Assembly (NCBI GenBank): GCA_029260715.1 | Contig: JAJDCS010000010.1 | Span: 62,001-126,000 of the forward strand | DNA length: 64,000 nt | Source: Phycisphaeraceae bacterium | GTDB taxonomy: Bacteria; Planctomycetota; Phycisphaerae; Phycisphaerales; Phycisphaeraceae | Reading direction: 5' to 3' | Part shown: piece after piece, positions 38,824 to 47,856 of the stretch | How the letters are laid out: every line of letters begins with the position of its first letter | Numbering within the stretch: the stretch's first letter is position 1 | The notes under the pieces: model-generated | Told to the model about the DNA's origin: nothing | What the model saw: the letters and a program-made list of their open reading frames with translations, nothing else | The model's database searches: none | Program-made: the position numbers and the translations under genes

Positions 38824-39267
38824 ATGGACCTGTCATTCCTTCCACACGTCAACGCCGCGCTGAACTCAGCCGCGTTTGTGTTGCTGGTCACCGGCTTCGT
38901 GTTCATTAAAAATGGGCGTGTCGCGCCGCACCGCGCCTGCATGATCGGCGCCGCAACGTTCTCGGGGCTGTTCCTGATTTGCTACGTCGTGCATTACGTG
39001 TGGCGAGCGTCCGTCATGGGAGGGTCGCACACGCCCTTTAACGGCGTGGGTGTGATAAAAAAGTTTTACTATGCGCTCCTGCTTAGCCACATCGCGCTGG
39101 CTATCTTTGTGCCGTACCTGGCGGGGCGGCTGATCTGGCTGGGAGCCAAGGGGCGGTACCCCGCGCACAAACGCCTGGCTAAAATCGGCTTCCCCGTCTG
39201 GCTCTACGTCTCGCTGACCGGTGTATTCGTCTACGTCATGCTGTATTGGCTCAACCCGCAGCCTTGA
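38824..39267 (+). CDS. DUF420 membrane protein
   Basis: 147 residues with four membrane helices. The conserved elements are FLPHVNAALNSAAFVLL with an N-terminal histidine, HRACMIGAATFSGLFLICYVVHY, and the FYYALLLSHIALAIF helix, i.e. histidines and tyrosines at helix ends. DUF420 proteins relate to CtaM, an oxidase assembly factor in Bacillus. It is placed 8 bases after SCO, as expected for an oxidase biogenesis role. Confidence 0.88.
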   Translation: MDLSFLPHVNAALNSAAFVLLVTGFVFIKNGRVAPHRACMIGAATFSGLFLICYVVHYVWRASVMGGSHTPFNGVGVIKKFYYALLLSHIALAIFVPYLAGRLIWLGAKGRYPAHKRLAKIGFPVWLYVSLTGVFVYVMLYWLNPQP

Positions 39268-39316
39268 TCGACCTCAACCGATTACCCCAAACACGCAACT
39301 CAACTATGATTCTCAT

Positions 39317-40252
39317 ATGGACCGCGCTGACTCGGACAACACGCCCTTTTCCCCGCCCTCGGCTGCCGAGGTCGAGGCCTACCTGGATAAACACCCACCG
39401 CGCGGCCCATCAAAATCTACGGCTTGGCTCAAGATCGCCCTGCTAGCCGGTTCGCTTGTGATCAGCTACTGGGCGTCCTCGCCCTTAGCCGCGGCGCTGC
39501 CCTGGGCGGTAATGGGCGTGATCCTGGTAGACCTCCTCTCCGCGGCACGGCGCAAGCGCCTCGCGGAGCGGCACCTGGCTCAAGCCCAAGAAGACGCGGC
39601 AATCCACCGCTGGCTCGCCGCGCTGCGGTGCGCTTGGGAGTTGGTCCCCGCCCCGGCGGTGACACCGACCATGCACGGCCGGGCCGTCTTGTTAATCGCC
39701 CACTGCCTCGACCAACTGAACCGCCACGACGCGGCCATCGTCGCGTACCGGTACCTGATCGACCGCATCCCCCCCGGAGACCCGTTGGCGGTCCAACTCA
39801 AGATCCAATACGCCATGGCTCAACTCGCCGGCGACCAGCTCACCGACGCGGACGACACGCTGCGCAGGCTCCTAGGCAACACCGACGCGCTCAAGCAGCC
39901 ACACCTGCGCGCGGCGTACAAGCTGGCAACCCTCTACCAGCAAGCCGGCACCAACCACTGGGCGGACGCCGTGACACAGGACGCGGACAGCTTGATCAAC
40001 GAGCTTCGCCCGCTAGGTATTGAAGCGGGGTTCGGGTACGCGTTGTTAGCGCTGTGTCACTACCAGCAACGGCAACACAGCCCCCACACGCCCGACGGCA
40101 CACCGCACGATCACCAAGACGCCGCGTGGTGGGCCCGCGCCACACTGTTGCTGCCCGTGCGTAAGCTCGTGGCGCGCTTGCCCCAACTGAAGCAGCTTTC
40201 ACTACACCTCCAAGCTCAACAGCCGCCGCCCGCACTAACCTCCGCTTGCTGA
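39317..40252 (+). CDS. Membrane-anchored TPR-like protein, first of a pair
   Basis: 311 residues from ATG 39317 (the frame is open to GTG 39221 inside DUF420, but that part is not natural). An acidic N-terminus, a two-helix membrane region (WLKIALLAGSLVISYWASSPL and ALPWAVMGVILVDLL), then a helical-repeat domain with paired helices such as AQAQEDAAIHRWLAALRCAWEL, DAAIVAYRYLIDRIPPGDPL and LKQPHLRAAYKLATLYQQAG, i.e. divergent TPRs. Probably a scaffold on the inner face of the membrane. Function unknown. Confidence 0.65.
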   Translation: MDRADSDNTPFSPPSAAEVEAYLDKHPPRGPSKSTAWLKIALLAGSLVISYWASSPLAAALPWAVMGVILVDLLSAARRKRLAERHLAQAQEDAAIHRWLAALRCAWELVPAPAVTPTMHGRAVLLIAHCLDQLNRHDAAIVAYRYLIDRIPPGDPLAVQLKIQYAMAQLAGDQLTDADDTLRRLLGNTDALKQPHLRAAYKLATLYQQAGTNHWADAVTQDADSLINELRPLGIEAGFGYALLALCHYQQRQHSPHTPDGTPHDHQDAAWWARATLLLPVRKLVARLPQLKQLSLHLQAQQPPPALTSAC

Positions 40253-40262
40253 CACAGACCAT

Positions 40263-41195
40263 ATGAACGCCTCACCATCACTCAACGCCGCGGCGCCGCC
40301 GCCCAACCGCATCGCCCTTTCGGGGCAATGCCCCGCGTTCGACCACCACCGGTTCCGGCGAGAGTTGACCGCGGACGCATTGATCCGAAGAACCATACTG
40401 GCCGCGGTCATCATCTACTTCTTGATCGGATCAGAAATCGCCCAAACCCACCCCTCGTGGTCCGGGATATGGATGATCGCTGTCTTGTTCGCGTGGTTCT
40501 GGGTCAGCCTGATCGGCGCGCGCGTGGCGAGACAGTTGCCGGGCATGACGGCTTTGGCCCAGCAAGACCCCGCCGCCGCCGAGCCGTTGATCGCCCAGGC
40601 GCTTCGGCGCCACCCGCTGCCACGCAAGCTCAGGCTGCTCTTGTACGAACGGCTAGCCATGACCCGGCTGCGTCAGGGGCGATACACCGAAGTCGTCATG
40701 ATCTGCCAGTCGGTGCTGACCAAAACGCCGGCCCAACCCAGCGGCGAGACCAGCGGGCCGGTCAGTGCCAGACTGAGACGCCTGGCATCATTTTTCGTGC
40801 TCAGGCCAAGCGTGCTTGCCGCGCTGCGGCCGAACTTGTTGCTGATGCTCGTTGAGGCGAGACTCTGGCACGGCGACGCGGTGGGTGCCTACTTCGACCT
40901 GCTCCAGTTGCACGGCTGTGAGTTAAACCTGACCGACCGCTTGCGCCTGTTGCTGTTGCAAACCCGCTACGAGCTGGCGATCGGCAACCCCAAAGCTGTG
41001 CTGGACCACGTCGCTCAAAAGATACGCGTGGCGGAGTTGATGCCCACGGTTCAGTGCGGCACGATGCACGCCATGCTCGCCGCCGCCGCTTACCAAGACA
41101 GACGCCCGGACCTTTACGATTGGCTGGGCCGTCGCGCCGAACTGCTGTGCACACCCGCGCAATGGCAAGCAGCCGTTGCGGGGCGGGGCGCGTAG
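40263..41195 (+). CDS. Membrane-anchored TPR-like protein, second of a pair
   Basis: 310 residues, starting 11 bases after the previous stop. Same design: two helices (RRTILAAVIIYFLIGSEIA and GIWMIAVLFAWFWVSLIGA), then helical repeats (QDPAAAEPLIAQALRRHP, RKLRLLLYERLAMTRLRQGRY, HGDAVGAYFDLLQLHGCEL, LLLQTRYELAIGNPKAVLDHV). It looks like a paralogue or partner of the preceding protein. Unknown function. Convergent with smc (21-base gap). Confidence 0.65.
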   Translation: MNASPSLNAAAPPPNRIALSGQCPAFDHHRFRRELTADALIRRTILAAVIIYFLIGSEIAQTHPSWSGIWMIAVLFAWFWVSLIGARVARQLPGMTALAQQDPAAAEPLIAQALRRHPLPRKLRLLLYERLAMTRLRQGRYTEVVMICQSVLTKTPAQPSGETSGPVSARLRRLASFFVLRPSVLAALRPNLLLMLVEARLWHGDAVGAYFDLLQLHGCELNLTDRLRLLLLQTRYELAIGNPKAVLDHVAQKIRVAELMPTVQCGTMHAMLAAAAYQDRRPDLYDWLGRRAELLCTPAQWQAAVAGRGA

Positions 41196-41216: not shown

Positions 41217-45098
<3,882 letters not shown>

Positions 45099-45212: not shown

Positions 45213-47093
45213 TTAGGGGAAAAATAAAGGCGGGGGGACCGGCTCGTCGTCGGTCGCGGCTGAGTCGCCCGGCCCCAGCGCGTCCCAGTCTTCCGGGCGT
45301 GACTGCGCGGAGCCGCCCACCGGCTCATACACACCTTGGTCTTTGTCGGTTTCGGGGCGAGGCTCATCGGTCGCGGCTTGCTGGGCGTCGGCGATGGCCT
45401 GGGCGATCGGGTTGATCTGTAAATGCGTGTCGCTAGGAATCGTGCCCTGCTGACACAACTGATACACCGCGCTGGCAACCTCGCTGTAAGTCAGGTCCAA
45501 CCCCTCGGCCGGCTGACTCATCGTAGGCTTGTGGGCTAATAGGTAGATGAACTCCGCGGCGGTGGCGGGGATCTCAGCGGTGCGCCCGTCGACCTGCCCG
45601 GGCTTCTGCGAAAAAACGGCGATCGACTCGCCCGCACCACGCACCATCAGCCGATTGCCCCACAGAGTCGCTAAGAACGGCGTGCGGAAGCCCAGCGTGG
45701 GGTTGAAGATCACCAGCCGGGGCAGTCGCTGGTGGGCGATATAAACAAGCGGCCTGCGCGCAGGCACCAGGTCGAGCACAAACTTAAACCGCTCGGCGTC
45801 TGGGCCGTCGATCGCCATGCGGTGGATACTCGGGTCGTTGACGGTGACCAGCGACTCGTAGGCCGCCACGCGCACGCTCTGGTCGTGATCGTCTAGCAAG
45901 CCCTGCAACAAGTTAGACCCTCGGATACTGCTGGGCAGGTTGACCAACATGCGCGCGACACGCCGGCGCGACTGGACATCGCCTTGCTGAGCCAGGCGCG
46001 ACAGGTGTTCGACGGTCGCTTCGTCTTCCATCCTGGCGCCGGCTTCCAAAGCGGTGAGTGTGATCTGCGGGTCGGCGTGGTTGTAGAGCGGGCGGATCAC
46101 CGGCAGCACAATCTTGCCCATAGCGACCCACGCCAACAGCACATCGGGCCCATAGCGTGGCTGAGCCAGCAGCAGGTCCGCCAATTGCTGGGCTTTGGTT
46201 TGCTCAAAGCCGGGGGCGCGTTGGGTAAATAAGTGCCCGATCAATTCCAGCAGCGTTTCGGGGTTAGTGCTGTACCGCTCGGGGATGTTGAGTGTGATGT
46301 ACACGTCGTTGACGGCTGAAGCTGTGTCCCACTTGTCGTAAGGGGCTTTGGGGAACCGCTCGTTGATACGGTCGGCGATCAGCCTGCTGCGTTGCCAACT
46401 GGGTTGGTTGAGCAGCAACTCCAACTGCCTGCTGGTGGTGGCGACGCCCCCGGACAGGACCACCGCCTGGCGCTGGATCTGTAGCTTGCGCTCTTGGGGC
46501 GTGCTTTCGTCAAATGGGTTGATATACAGCGGCCCGCTGGCTTGGCCTAACTTGTGACGGTACTGCAACGACCGATCGCCCGCGCCCTGCACAAGATCGA
46601 CCGTCCACAGCCGCCCGCCAAGGAGGCTGGTGGTCTGTGTCTGGGGCAGGCTGGTAACGAGCACGTCAAACCGCGTGCCCTTGGTCGCGCCTGGCGGGAT
46701 CAGCCCTTGGACCTGGACCACGGCGGTGTCGAGGCTGGCAAGCATCCTTTCGGGTGTCATCTGCCCGGTGCCTAGCGCCGCGCTACCCACGCCGCGTTTG
46801 CGCATCTCATTAATCAGCCACTGCCGCAAGAAAGCGGGCACCTCGGCCGAACCGGTGCCCTGGAGGTTGACGACCAGGCCGTACCCGCTGACCAACTGTG
46901 GACCGCTGCCTCGTAAACGGGTCATGGAGCCGACCGTCCCGTGGAGGAACGCCGGGCCGGTGTACGTCGGGGGCGGGACAGGCGAGGTGGCTTGCTCAAC
47001 TTTTTTACACCCGCCTAGCCACACCGCCAGCACCACCGCCAACGTGCGGGCCAGCCCAGACGATCGGTTTGATTGTGACGTGGATGGGTGCAT
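45213..47093 (-). CDS. Lipoprotein with FlgI-like domain and HEAT-like repeats
   Basis: 626 residues from ATG 47093. A lipobox (VVLAVWLGGC, Cys29) indicates a lipoprotein. Residues about 50-290 resemble the flagellar P-ring protein FlgI: VSGYGLVVNLQGTGS, VVQVQGLIPPGATKGTRFDVLV, TTSLLGGRLWTVDLV. Residues about 300-440 are helical repeats of HEAT type (DPQITLTALEAGARM, ARMLVNLPSSIRGSNLLQGLLDDHDQSVRVAAYESL). A beta-rich segment and a Pro/Asp-rich tail follow. No flagellar gene is near, so a ring or scaffold role in another envelope complex is inferred. The name FlgI should not be transferred. Confidence 0.65.
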   Translation of the reverse strand: MHPSTSQSNRSSGLARTLAVVLAVWLGGCKKVEQATSPVPPPTYTGPAFLHGTVGSMTRLRGSGPQLVSGYGLVVNLQGTGSAEVPAFLRQWLINEMRKRGVGSAALGTGQMTPERMLASLDTAVVQVQGLIPPGATKGTRFDVLVTSLPQTQTTSLLGGRLWTVDLVQGAGDRSLQYRHKLGQASGPLYINPFDESTPQERKLQIQRQAVVLSGGVATTSRQLELLLNQPSWQRSRLIADRINERFPKAPYDKWDTASAVNDVYITLNIPERYSTNPETLLELIGHLFTQRAPGFEQTKAQQLADLLLAQPRYGPDVLLAWVAMGKIVLPVIRPLYNHADPQITLTALEAGARMEDEATVEHLSRLAQQGDVQSRRRVARMLVNLPSSIRGSNLLQGLLDDHDQSVRVAAYESLVTVNDPSIHRMAIDGPDAERFKFVLDLVPARRPLVYIAHQRLPRLVIFNPTLGFRTPFLATLWGNRLMVRGAGESIAVFSQKPGQVDGRTAEIPATAAEFIYLLAHKPTMSQPAEGLDLTYSEVASAVYQLCQQGTIPSDTHLQINPIAQAIADAQQAATDEPRPETDKDQGVYEPVGGSAQSRPEDWDALGPGDSAATDDEPVPPPLFFP

Positions 47094-47235
47094 GTGTGTC
47101 TCGAACAGCAGGCCGGTTAATATTTTATAGTAAGGCGAGTGTATACAGTGATTTTCCGCCGCTAGAGCCGCAGGGTCAAGCATACCCGACCGGGCATGCT
47201 AACAGGGCCTGGTGCGCGTTACACTACCACCAGAT

Positions 47236-47856
47236 ATGCCTTTAGCGATGCAAAACGATATCGATCAGGTCTTGATCCACCGGGCGGACATTGCCCGGCG
47301 CGTGGAAGCGTTGGCCAAGCAGATCGCCGAGGACTTGGCTCTAGCGTCAGCGTCCACGAGCTCTGACGAGCACGACCATGCCGGGCGAATCACCCTGGTG
47401 CCGATCCTCACGGGCAGCCTGGTCTTCGTCGCCGACCTGATCCGGTGTCTGCCCGTGCGCATGCAGGTGAAGGTGATCTCGATCAGCTCCTACCCCGGCC
47501 CCAGCACGACCAGCCAAGGCCCGACGATCCTCGGCGGGTTGGACACCCTGCCCAAGCGGCTCGACGGCGCCAATGTGCTGCTGATTGATGACATCCTCGA
47601 CACCGGGCGCACGCTTGCGATGGTCATCGACCACCTCAAAGCCAAAAAGCCCCGGTCGATTCACACCTGCGTCATGCTCCGCAAGCAGCGGCCCGAAGAG
47701 GCGCGATTCAACGCGGACTACGTCGGCTTCGACATCCCCAACCGGTTTGTGGTCGGCTACGGGCTGGATTACAACGGCTACTACCGCAACCTGCCCGATA
47801 TCGTCACGCTGCGAGCCGAGGCGATCCACCAGCGGCGCCACGCGGAGGCTGTATGA
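47236..47856 (+). CDS. hpt: Hypoxanthine phosphoribosyltransferase
   Basis: Purine salvage enzyme that makes IMP or GMP from hypoxanthine or guanine and PRPP. The PRPP motif VLLIDDILDTGRT has Asp118 and Asp119; VPILTGSLVFVADLIR, ISISSYPG and FDIPNRFVVGYGLDYNGYYRNLP are HPRT signatures. About 206 residues; a hydrophilic insert (SASTSSDEHDHAG) follows the first helix. The start is uncertain between GTG 47212, ATG 47236 and ATG 47248; none has a strong ribosome-binding site. It overlaps the next gene by four bases. Confidence 0.93.
   Translation: MPLAMQNDIDQVLIHRADIARRVEALAKQIAEDLALASASTSSDEHDHAGRITLVPILTGSLVFVADLIRCLPVRMQVKVISISSYPGPSTTSQGPTILGGLDTLPKRLDGANVLLIDDILDTGRTLAMVIDHLKAKKPRSIHTCVMLRKQRPEEARFNADYVGFDIPNRFVVGYGLDYNGYYRNLPDIVTLRAEAIHQRRHAEAV

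Follow-up and report, generated by a model that had tools for sequence, protein, structure and literature searches.

The stretch of DNA considered here (the window, 64,000 nucleotides) contains a gene, flgI-HEAT, whose product we take to be an old paralogue of FlgI, the flagellar P-ring protein, with a job outside the flagellum. A lipoprotein signal, an origin from FlgI, a HEAT block, independence of flagella and linkage to smc are supported for this protein. We tentatively propose, as a reading that stops just short of probable, that FlgI-HEAT is a lipid-anchored, non-flagellar scaffold on the peptidoglycan side of the envelope, possibly ring-forming and co-expressed with smc, with a structural role in FtsZ-less division. 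None of the papers listed by searches of an open-access library describes the protein in its title or in the opening of its abstract. The gene, the parts of its product and its two neighbours are as follows.

45213-47093, minus strand: flgI-HEAT gene, encoding 626 aa and a stop; lipidation is expected at Cys29
47007-47093, minus strand: lipoprotein signal peptide and lipobox LGGC (residues 1-29); h-region seen in the sequence, Cys invariant in aligned relatives
46212-46940, minus strand: FlgI-like region corresponding to P-ring IRU and OR (residues 52-294); Pfam FlgI, hhalign E 1.5e-25, structure match
45840-46211, minus strand: HEAT solenoid (residues 295-418); HEAT_2, model helices 296-417, matches to alphaRep/HEAT structures
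45408-45839, minus strand: C-terminal alpha/beta domain (residues 419-562), similar at its end to the last 38 FlgI residues
45216-45407, minus strand: tail (residues 563-626); helix 563-575, the rest mostly disordered, RPE at 579-581, Pro-rich end
41217-45098, minus strand: smc, downstream neighbour on the same strand after a gap of 114 bp; SMC_N and SMC_hinge
47212-47856, plus strand: phosphoribosyltransferase (hpt-like), divergent upstream neighbour; Pribosyltran match

Architecture of the protein

The open reading frame of the gene extends from 47183 to 45213 on the minus strand. The ATG at 47093 yields a short signal peptide that ends in LGGC (residues 26-29), and the coordinates 45213-47093 given by the first-pass annotation are therefore sound. 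The protein reads MHPS...LGGC, followed by 597 residues. Its earlier description as a lipobox protein holds as well: the Cys is invariant in both alignments of the family, one of 29 rows (from 30 loci, the truncated L019 being left out) and one of 66 rows (the window protein and 65 of the 80 named loci, the other 15 being near-copies or odd or over-long frames). When a crude pattern may match at any place within the first 260 residues, lipobox-like strings turn up in 75 of the 80 named members, 15 of the 18 members from other classes and 36 of the 40 class members picked for spread. Two of the other-class members (L185 and L189) carry SRRxFLK ahead of the lipobox, which resembles a Tat signal; this suggests that some members outside the class may be exported in folded form. 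FlgI-HEAT is hence a putative lipoprotein, expected to be lipidated at Cys29, and its lipobox replaces the plain signal peptide of flagellar FlgI, which is cleavable (PMC8298488).

The Pfam family FlgI (PF02119) matches the 626-aa form with E 1.8e-19 and 70.3 bits (cut-off 25.3) over residues 57-287, equivalent to profile positions 5-222 of 343, and likewise matches all 66 aligned class members and all 18 members from other classes (E 0.01 or better). The NCBIfam FlgI subfamily PRK05303 scores 55.8 bits, far under its cut-off of 300. When the family alignment of 29 rows is compared by hhalign with 33 canonical FlgI sequences, the N-terminal part aligns with E 1.5e-25. An AlphaFold2 model of the 626-aa protein (66 sequences; mean pLDDT 89.0, pTM 0.82) has FlgI chains as its four top Foldseek matches in the PDB (E 6.8e-13 to 3.3e-12; TM-score 0.39-0.40 by target length), and VIA-align against solved P-ring FlgI gives Z 15.4-15.8 over 195-202 residues (rmsd 8.1-8.5), placing model residues 52-294 on FlgI residues 20-248 (precursor numbering). 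Mature Salmonella FlgI is described as consisting of OR (residues 1-11 and 160-230), IRU (12-159) and IRL (231-346) (PMC8298488). With an FlgI signal peptide of ~19 residues, as we infer from the chain lengths, these limits mean that the structure match covers IRU and OR. In these two domains FlgI-HEAT resembles flagellar FlgI (Salmonella LP ring, PDB 7CLR and 7BGL) by sequence and fold, and the IRU part is the most conserved region of FlgI-HEAT; given the high rmsd, the model suggests an IRU-OR angle that differs from solved FlgI.

The FlgI motifs quoted in the first-pass annotation are present, and both Pfam FlgI and HEAT_2 score above their cut-offs; the assignment of the first domain to FlgI is borne out by profile score and fold alike. 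IRU and OR align, and an alignment over the full length of FlgI is not obtained: for IRL, the structure search gives no match and the profile comparison a weak one confined to the last 38 residues. As a marker of FlgI-HEAT, loss of the lysine preceding SLxGG, taken to be the rod contact Lys-95 of Salmonella, was rejected, since K stands at this place in merely 6 of the 28 motif-bearing canonical FlgI of the class (33 examined) and does not discriminate. The residue preceding the GxG motif is mixed in the canonical set and was hence dropped.

Pfam HEAT_2 (PF13646) matches residues 329-382 with E 3.6e-7 and 30.8 bits (cut-off 27.7) and is found in 63 of the 66 aligned class members and in every one of the 18 members from other classes, and residues 296-417 of the AlphaFold2 model form the helices of a HEAT solenoid. 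The solenoid (residues 295-418) resembles artificial alphaRep and natural HEAT_2/PBS-lyase HEAT proteins, with the difference that here it would lie between the FlgI parts of a putative exported lipoprotein. On moderate evidence, the HEAT block is probably inserted into FlgI, between OR and a diverged IRL, and not simply appended, because the last ~38 FlgI residues appear to recur after it in profile comparisons. For the 29-row family against canonical FlgI, a second alignment (E 0.084) places the last FlgI residues on the post-HEAT region, and the C-terminal domain alone gives E 0.007. The alignment of other-class members gives single-pair E-values of 4.2e-4 as a whole and 5.7e-5 for its C-terminal part; for the merged alignment the single-pair E-value is 5.1e-5. 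The latter two matches span 38-39 residues, and the reversed controls lie at 0.33 and 0.37. Among single sequences, hmmsearch places the FlgI end at the post-HEAT position in 14 of 138 (one below 0.01), and the reversed-sequence control yields 14 matches in all, every one with E 1.3 or weaker. Modelled alone, the C-terminal domain (residues 419-562, pLDDT 92.6) has no Foldseek match at E 0.001 or better, and its best VIA-align match reaches Z 2.8; the absence of FlgI among the matches listed does not speak against a relation to IRL.

The order given by the first-pass annotation, FlgI followed by HEAT, is thus right in that both parts are present; the order itself is probably HEAT within FlgI according to the profile comparison, which the structure search does not confirm. 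The third FlgI domain, IRL, appears to be replaced or strongly diverged in FlgI-HEAT. Likeness to flagellar FlgI probably resumes with the last 38 residues of the latter, whereas the HEAT block and an IRL unrecognised by structure set the two proteins apart. The Pro-rich tail that had been noted corresponds to the Pro-rich, mostly disordered end of residues 563-626, in which pLDDT falls below 50 at residues 585-618 and 622-626. The tail carries an RP(E/D) motif at 579-581 whose Arg579 is invariant in the 66 rows, and several of the class members shown end in TVPR; the motif and the last residues together fall at about 45216-45360 of the window. A viral structure library gave no match at E 0.001.

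Distribution, ancestry and flagella

FlgI-HEAT is present in 189 of the 198 genomes of the class, taken to be Phycisphaerae, and in 153 of the 155 that are of high quality. The initial protein query had matched 191 of 198 genomes at E 1e-5 (154 of 155 of high quality); two genomes (G166 and G180) were taken out of the count, as the family-alignment search shows their matches to be frames of ordinary FlgI, 384 and 416 aa long. The nine genomes without the gene are G016, G058, G098, G150, G157, G166, G173, G178 and G180, among which G016 and G166 are of high quality. FlgH occurs in 137 of the 198 genomes and FliG_C in 146, and ordinary FlgI is missing from 62. FlgI-HEAT is found in 131 of the 137 genomes with FlgH and in 58 of the 61 without. 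Twelve of the FlgH-less genomes still give a FliG_C match, hence the stricter count of 49 genomes that have neither FlgH nor FliG_C nor canonical FlgI; 47 of these harbor FlgI-HEAT, and the two misses (G150 and G173) have a completeness of 79% and 69%, respectively. Some FliG_C matches lie in long frames of about 510-680 aa (G111, G187, G117, G129, G141 and others, family f14). Such a frame accompanies a normal-length FliG frame in several f14 genomes and occurs in G111 and G187 together with the absence of FlgH.

Outside the class, FlgI-HEAT is found in 21 of 272 genomes (phylum sample 294) with E 5e-66 or better, distributed over four families (16 in f48, 3 in f89 and one each in f98 and f69); the remaining 251 have no comparable full-length match. 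Four of these 21 carriers (G437, G445, G452 and G250) are not among the FlgH-positive genomes. In two genomes of family f55 (G227 and G286) pieces are found that are possibly further copies. Other flagellated genomes of the phylum, such as those listed from family f66, show just a frame of canonical FlgI length and no full-length FlgI-HEAT among the matches listed.

The window genome itself is equipped with flagellar genes and has, on another contig, a separate flgI next to flgH, which answers the question, raised in the first-pass annotation, of whether flagella and a standard flgI exist alongside. The same annotation described the locus as devoid of flagellar genes, in agreement with the retrieved flanks of the 138 loci, which give no further match to a canonical FlgI profile or to the own-genome FlgH. 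Unlike flagellar FlgI, FlgI-HEAT is not found in flagellar loci and is kept without flagella; its independence of flagella is supported.

A maximum-likelihood tree of 105 FlgI regions (midpoint root) separates the 33 canonical FlgI of the class, as one clade with 100/100 support, from 72 HEAT-type rows, comprising 14 drawn randomly from the 66-row alignment and all 58 of L175-L232. The canonical rows are mostly top-scoring class FlgI, and L001 alone represents the window's own kind; long branches lead to OC_L188, CAN_L001 and HT_L229. Among the HEAT-type rows, those from the class and those from outside are nearly completely separated, with three changes in all, and neither group is a single clade. 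The tree fits one old duplication followed by mostly vertical descent. An essay from 2006 mentions P-ring genes in Planctomycetales, whose peptidoglycan it took to be lost (PMC1586193); these may or may not include the present paralogue.

Gene neighbourhood

The gene smc lies directly downstream of flgI-HEAT on the same strand in 112 of the 138 loci. Of these, 77 belong to the 80 named loci, 16 to the 18 loci from other classes and 19 to the 40 class loci picked for spread; the loci are not independent, and some genomes are possibly in both sets. A cruder gene-order script finds smc adjoining in 104 loci. Among the 40 spread loci, smc is not directly adjacent in 21, of which 2 have it within 5 kb, and the exceptions in the named set are L076 (gap 2781), L067 (no smc found over about 8 kb) and L116, where the contig ends. 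Gaps have a median of 79 bases in the named, 96 in the other-class and 67 in the spread class loci. In three loci (L111, L133 and L213) the two genes, as called by the script, overlap by 4 bases, which suggests coupled translation there. The SMC protein shows ordinary SMC_N and hinge matches, and the gene for ScpB is found in 60 of 61 class genomes. A match to the tubulin/FtsZ family (PF00091) occurs in just 3 of 61 class genomes, G035, G042 and G049, which belong to one genus of the class; these matches are weak (E 7e-9 to 6e-10).

Clustering of neighbouring genes yields no gene besides smc that exceeds 35 of the 138 loci. That figure is reached by ftsK in a single-linkage cluster; direct BLAST gives 27 loci, 26 of them upstream and on the same strand, and we use the lower figure, corresponding to 26 of the 80 named loci. 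In 10 of them ftsK is less than 750 bp away, giving the order ftsK - flgI-HEAT - smc (L084, L087, L090, L091, L100, L108, L113, L114, L117 and L129). In the window genome, ftsK is located about 53 kb off on the same contig. The hpt-like phosphoribosyltransferase is not widely conserved; 7 of the 80 named loci have a homologue in their flanks. A further cluster, represented by L136:14216-15352 and found in 16 named loci, consists of an opposite-strand gene that mostly comes five to seven crude ORFs further downstream, and the single representative scanned contains a LysM domain. Two adjacent plus-strand frames of the window (39221-40252 and 40263-41195) are convergent with smc and have no Pfam match at E 0.001. 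Scans for promoters (1 promoter-like site, 0.6 expected) and terminators (4 terminator-like sites, 2.0 expected, sd 1.8) were discarded as evidence, the counts being too near expectation.

Proposed role and alternatives

Flagellar FlgI assembles as a 26-mer ring around the rod. According to our proposal, FlgI-HEAT would be exported, lipidated at Cys29 and, by analogy with FlgI, held at the periplasmic face of the envelope in association with peptidoglycan; FlgI-OR has been likened to a peptidoglycan-binding domain (PMC8298488), and OR is thought to contact peptidoglycan. The FlgI part may then position or oligomerise the protein, perhaps as a ring or arc, and the HEAT surface and the tail may bind partners. 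Since smc usually follows the gene directly, the amount of FlgI-HEAT is probably coupled to the chromosome cycle, from which our best guess is a structural role in constriction or organisation of the envelope at division in FtsZ-less planctomycetes. Lipidation, peptidoglycan contact, oligomerisation, co-expression with smc and a link to division or segregation are the properties that we infer in this way. In a more specific version, which we regard as unlikely, a flagellar P-ring protein has become a ring or arc in the periplasm, anchored by lipid, that takes a share in envelope constriction or chromosome-coupled division of bacteria lacking FtsZ and is expressed in step with smc and, in some lineages, also with ftsK.

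The absence of FtsZ is reported for the phylum (PMC5147048), the way in which planctomycetes divide without it has been called unknown, and in P. limnophila ftsK is apparently essential (PMC6952346; PMC5147048). The terms flagell-, SMC and P-ring do not occur in the main text of the study of essential genes in P. limnophila (PMC10632474), nor do flagell-, SMC and FlgI in that of the corresponding study of Verrucomicrobium (PMC12283558). Several observations speak against parts of the proposal. In 21 of the 40 spread class loci smc is not the direct neighbour, and ftsK adjoins the gene in some of the named loci only. Should the 251 of 272 genomes outside the class that gave no comparable full-length match also be FtsZ-less, FlgI-HEAT is not required for FtsZ-less division generally. 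IRL, a contributor to subunit contacts in the P-ring, has no structural match here, and the two FlgI domains of the model appear to be arranged differently from solved FlgI. Moreover, SMC is cytoplasmic and FlgI-HEAT has an export signal, so contact between the two is not expected and the linkage may be transcriptional only.

The strongest rival is a plain tether. Pal and OmpA-like outer-membrane lipoproteins combine a lipid anchor with a domain on the peptidoglycan side, and the topology expected for FlgI-HEAT would by analogy be the same, although Pfam gives no OmpA-type domain. FlgI-HEAT would then be a general link between outer membrane and peptidoglycan, with its lipid in the outer membrane, the OR part on peptidoglycan and the HEAT part binding other envelope proteins, and would neither form a ring nor have a special link to division. 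The invariant lipobox, the resemblance of FlgI-OR to a peptidoglycan-binding domain (PMC8298488), the near-universal presence in the class and the absence of smc adjacency in 21 of 40 spread loci are in line with such a tether. The explanation leaves unaccounted for that smc is the one neighbour conserved across classes and that IRU, the best conserved stretch of the protein, has been kept in full; we consider it somewhat unlikely. That the linkage to smc is an inherited operon without functional meaning, with FlgI-HEAT performing an unrelated envelope job such as secretion or the collar of a surface appendage, appears distinctly improbable. Gene order can persist, P-ring-like collars could serve other machines, and 26 of 138 loci do not have smc directly behind the gene, but the adjacency is found inside and outside the class although other neighbours are shuffled, and the three 4-base overlaps suggest coupled translation there.

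A function at the flagellar motor, as an accessory that forms an extra ring round the P-ring, would be in keeping with the FlgI homology and the flagellar genes of the window genome. It is rejected as very improbable, as the presence counts and the aflagellate genomes contradict it: 47 of the 49 genomes without the three flagellar markers keep the gene, the retrieved flanks of the 138 loci give no further match to canonical FlgI or FlgH, and FlgH-bearing families such as f66 have no full-length match among the matches listed. The combination of HEAT repeats with a conserved smc neighbour also recalls the HAWK subunits of the eukaryotic SMC complexes condensin and cohesin, which have HEAT repeats and associate with SMC; for FlgI-HEAT the association is genomic only. 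A structural match to cohesin STAG1 is weak and merely one among many HEAT matches. FlgI-HEAT differs from HAWK subunits by its lipoprotein export signal, with an invariant lipobox, and it is hard to see what its FlgI part would do in the cytoplasm; the standard partner ScpB, moreover, is present in 60 of 61 class genomes. A cytoplasmic HAWK-like partner of SMC is hence highly implausible, and one that replaces ScpB is not supported.

The first-pass annotation had suggested a ring-forming scaffold in a non-flagellar envelope complex. Its FlgI origin, its lipoprotein signal and the lack of dependence on flagella stand, whereas the FlgI alignment is not full length. What is added here is the near-universality in the class, the retention without flagella and the conserved smc neighbour. 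As a core envelope protein with the ancestry of a ring-former, retained in aflagellate genomes and often located beside smc, FlgI-HEAT is a concrete candidate for a component of FtsZ-less planctomycete division, and would be a clear case of a flagellar part reused outside the flagellum.
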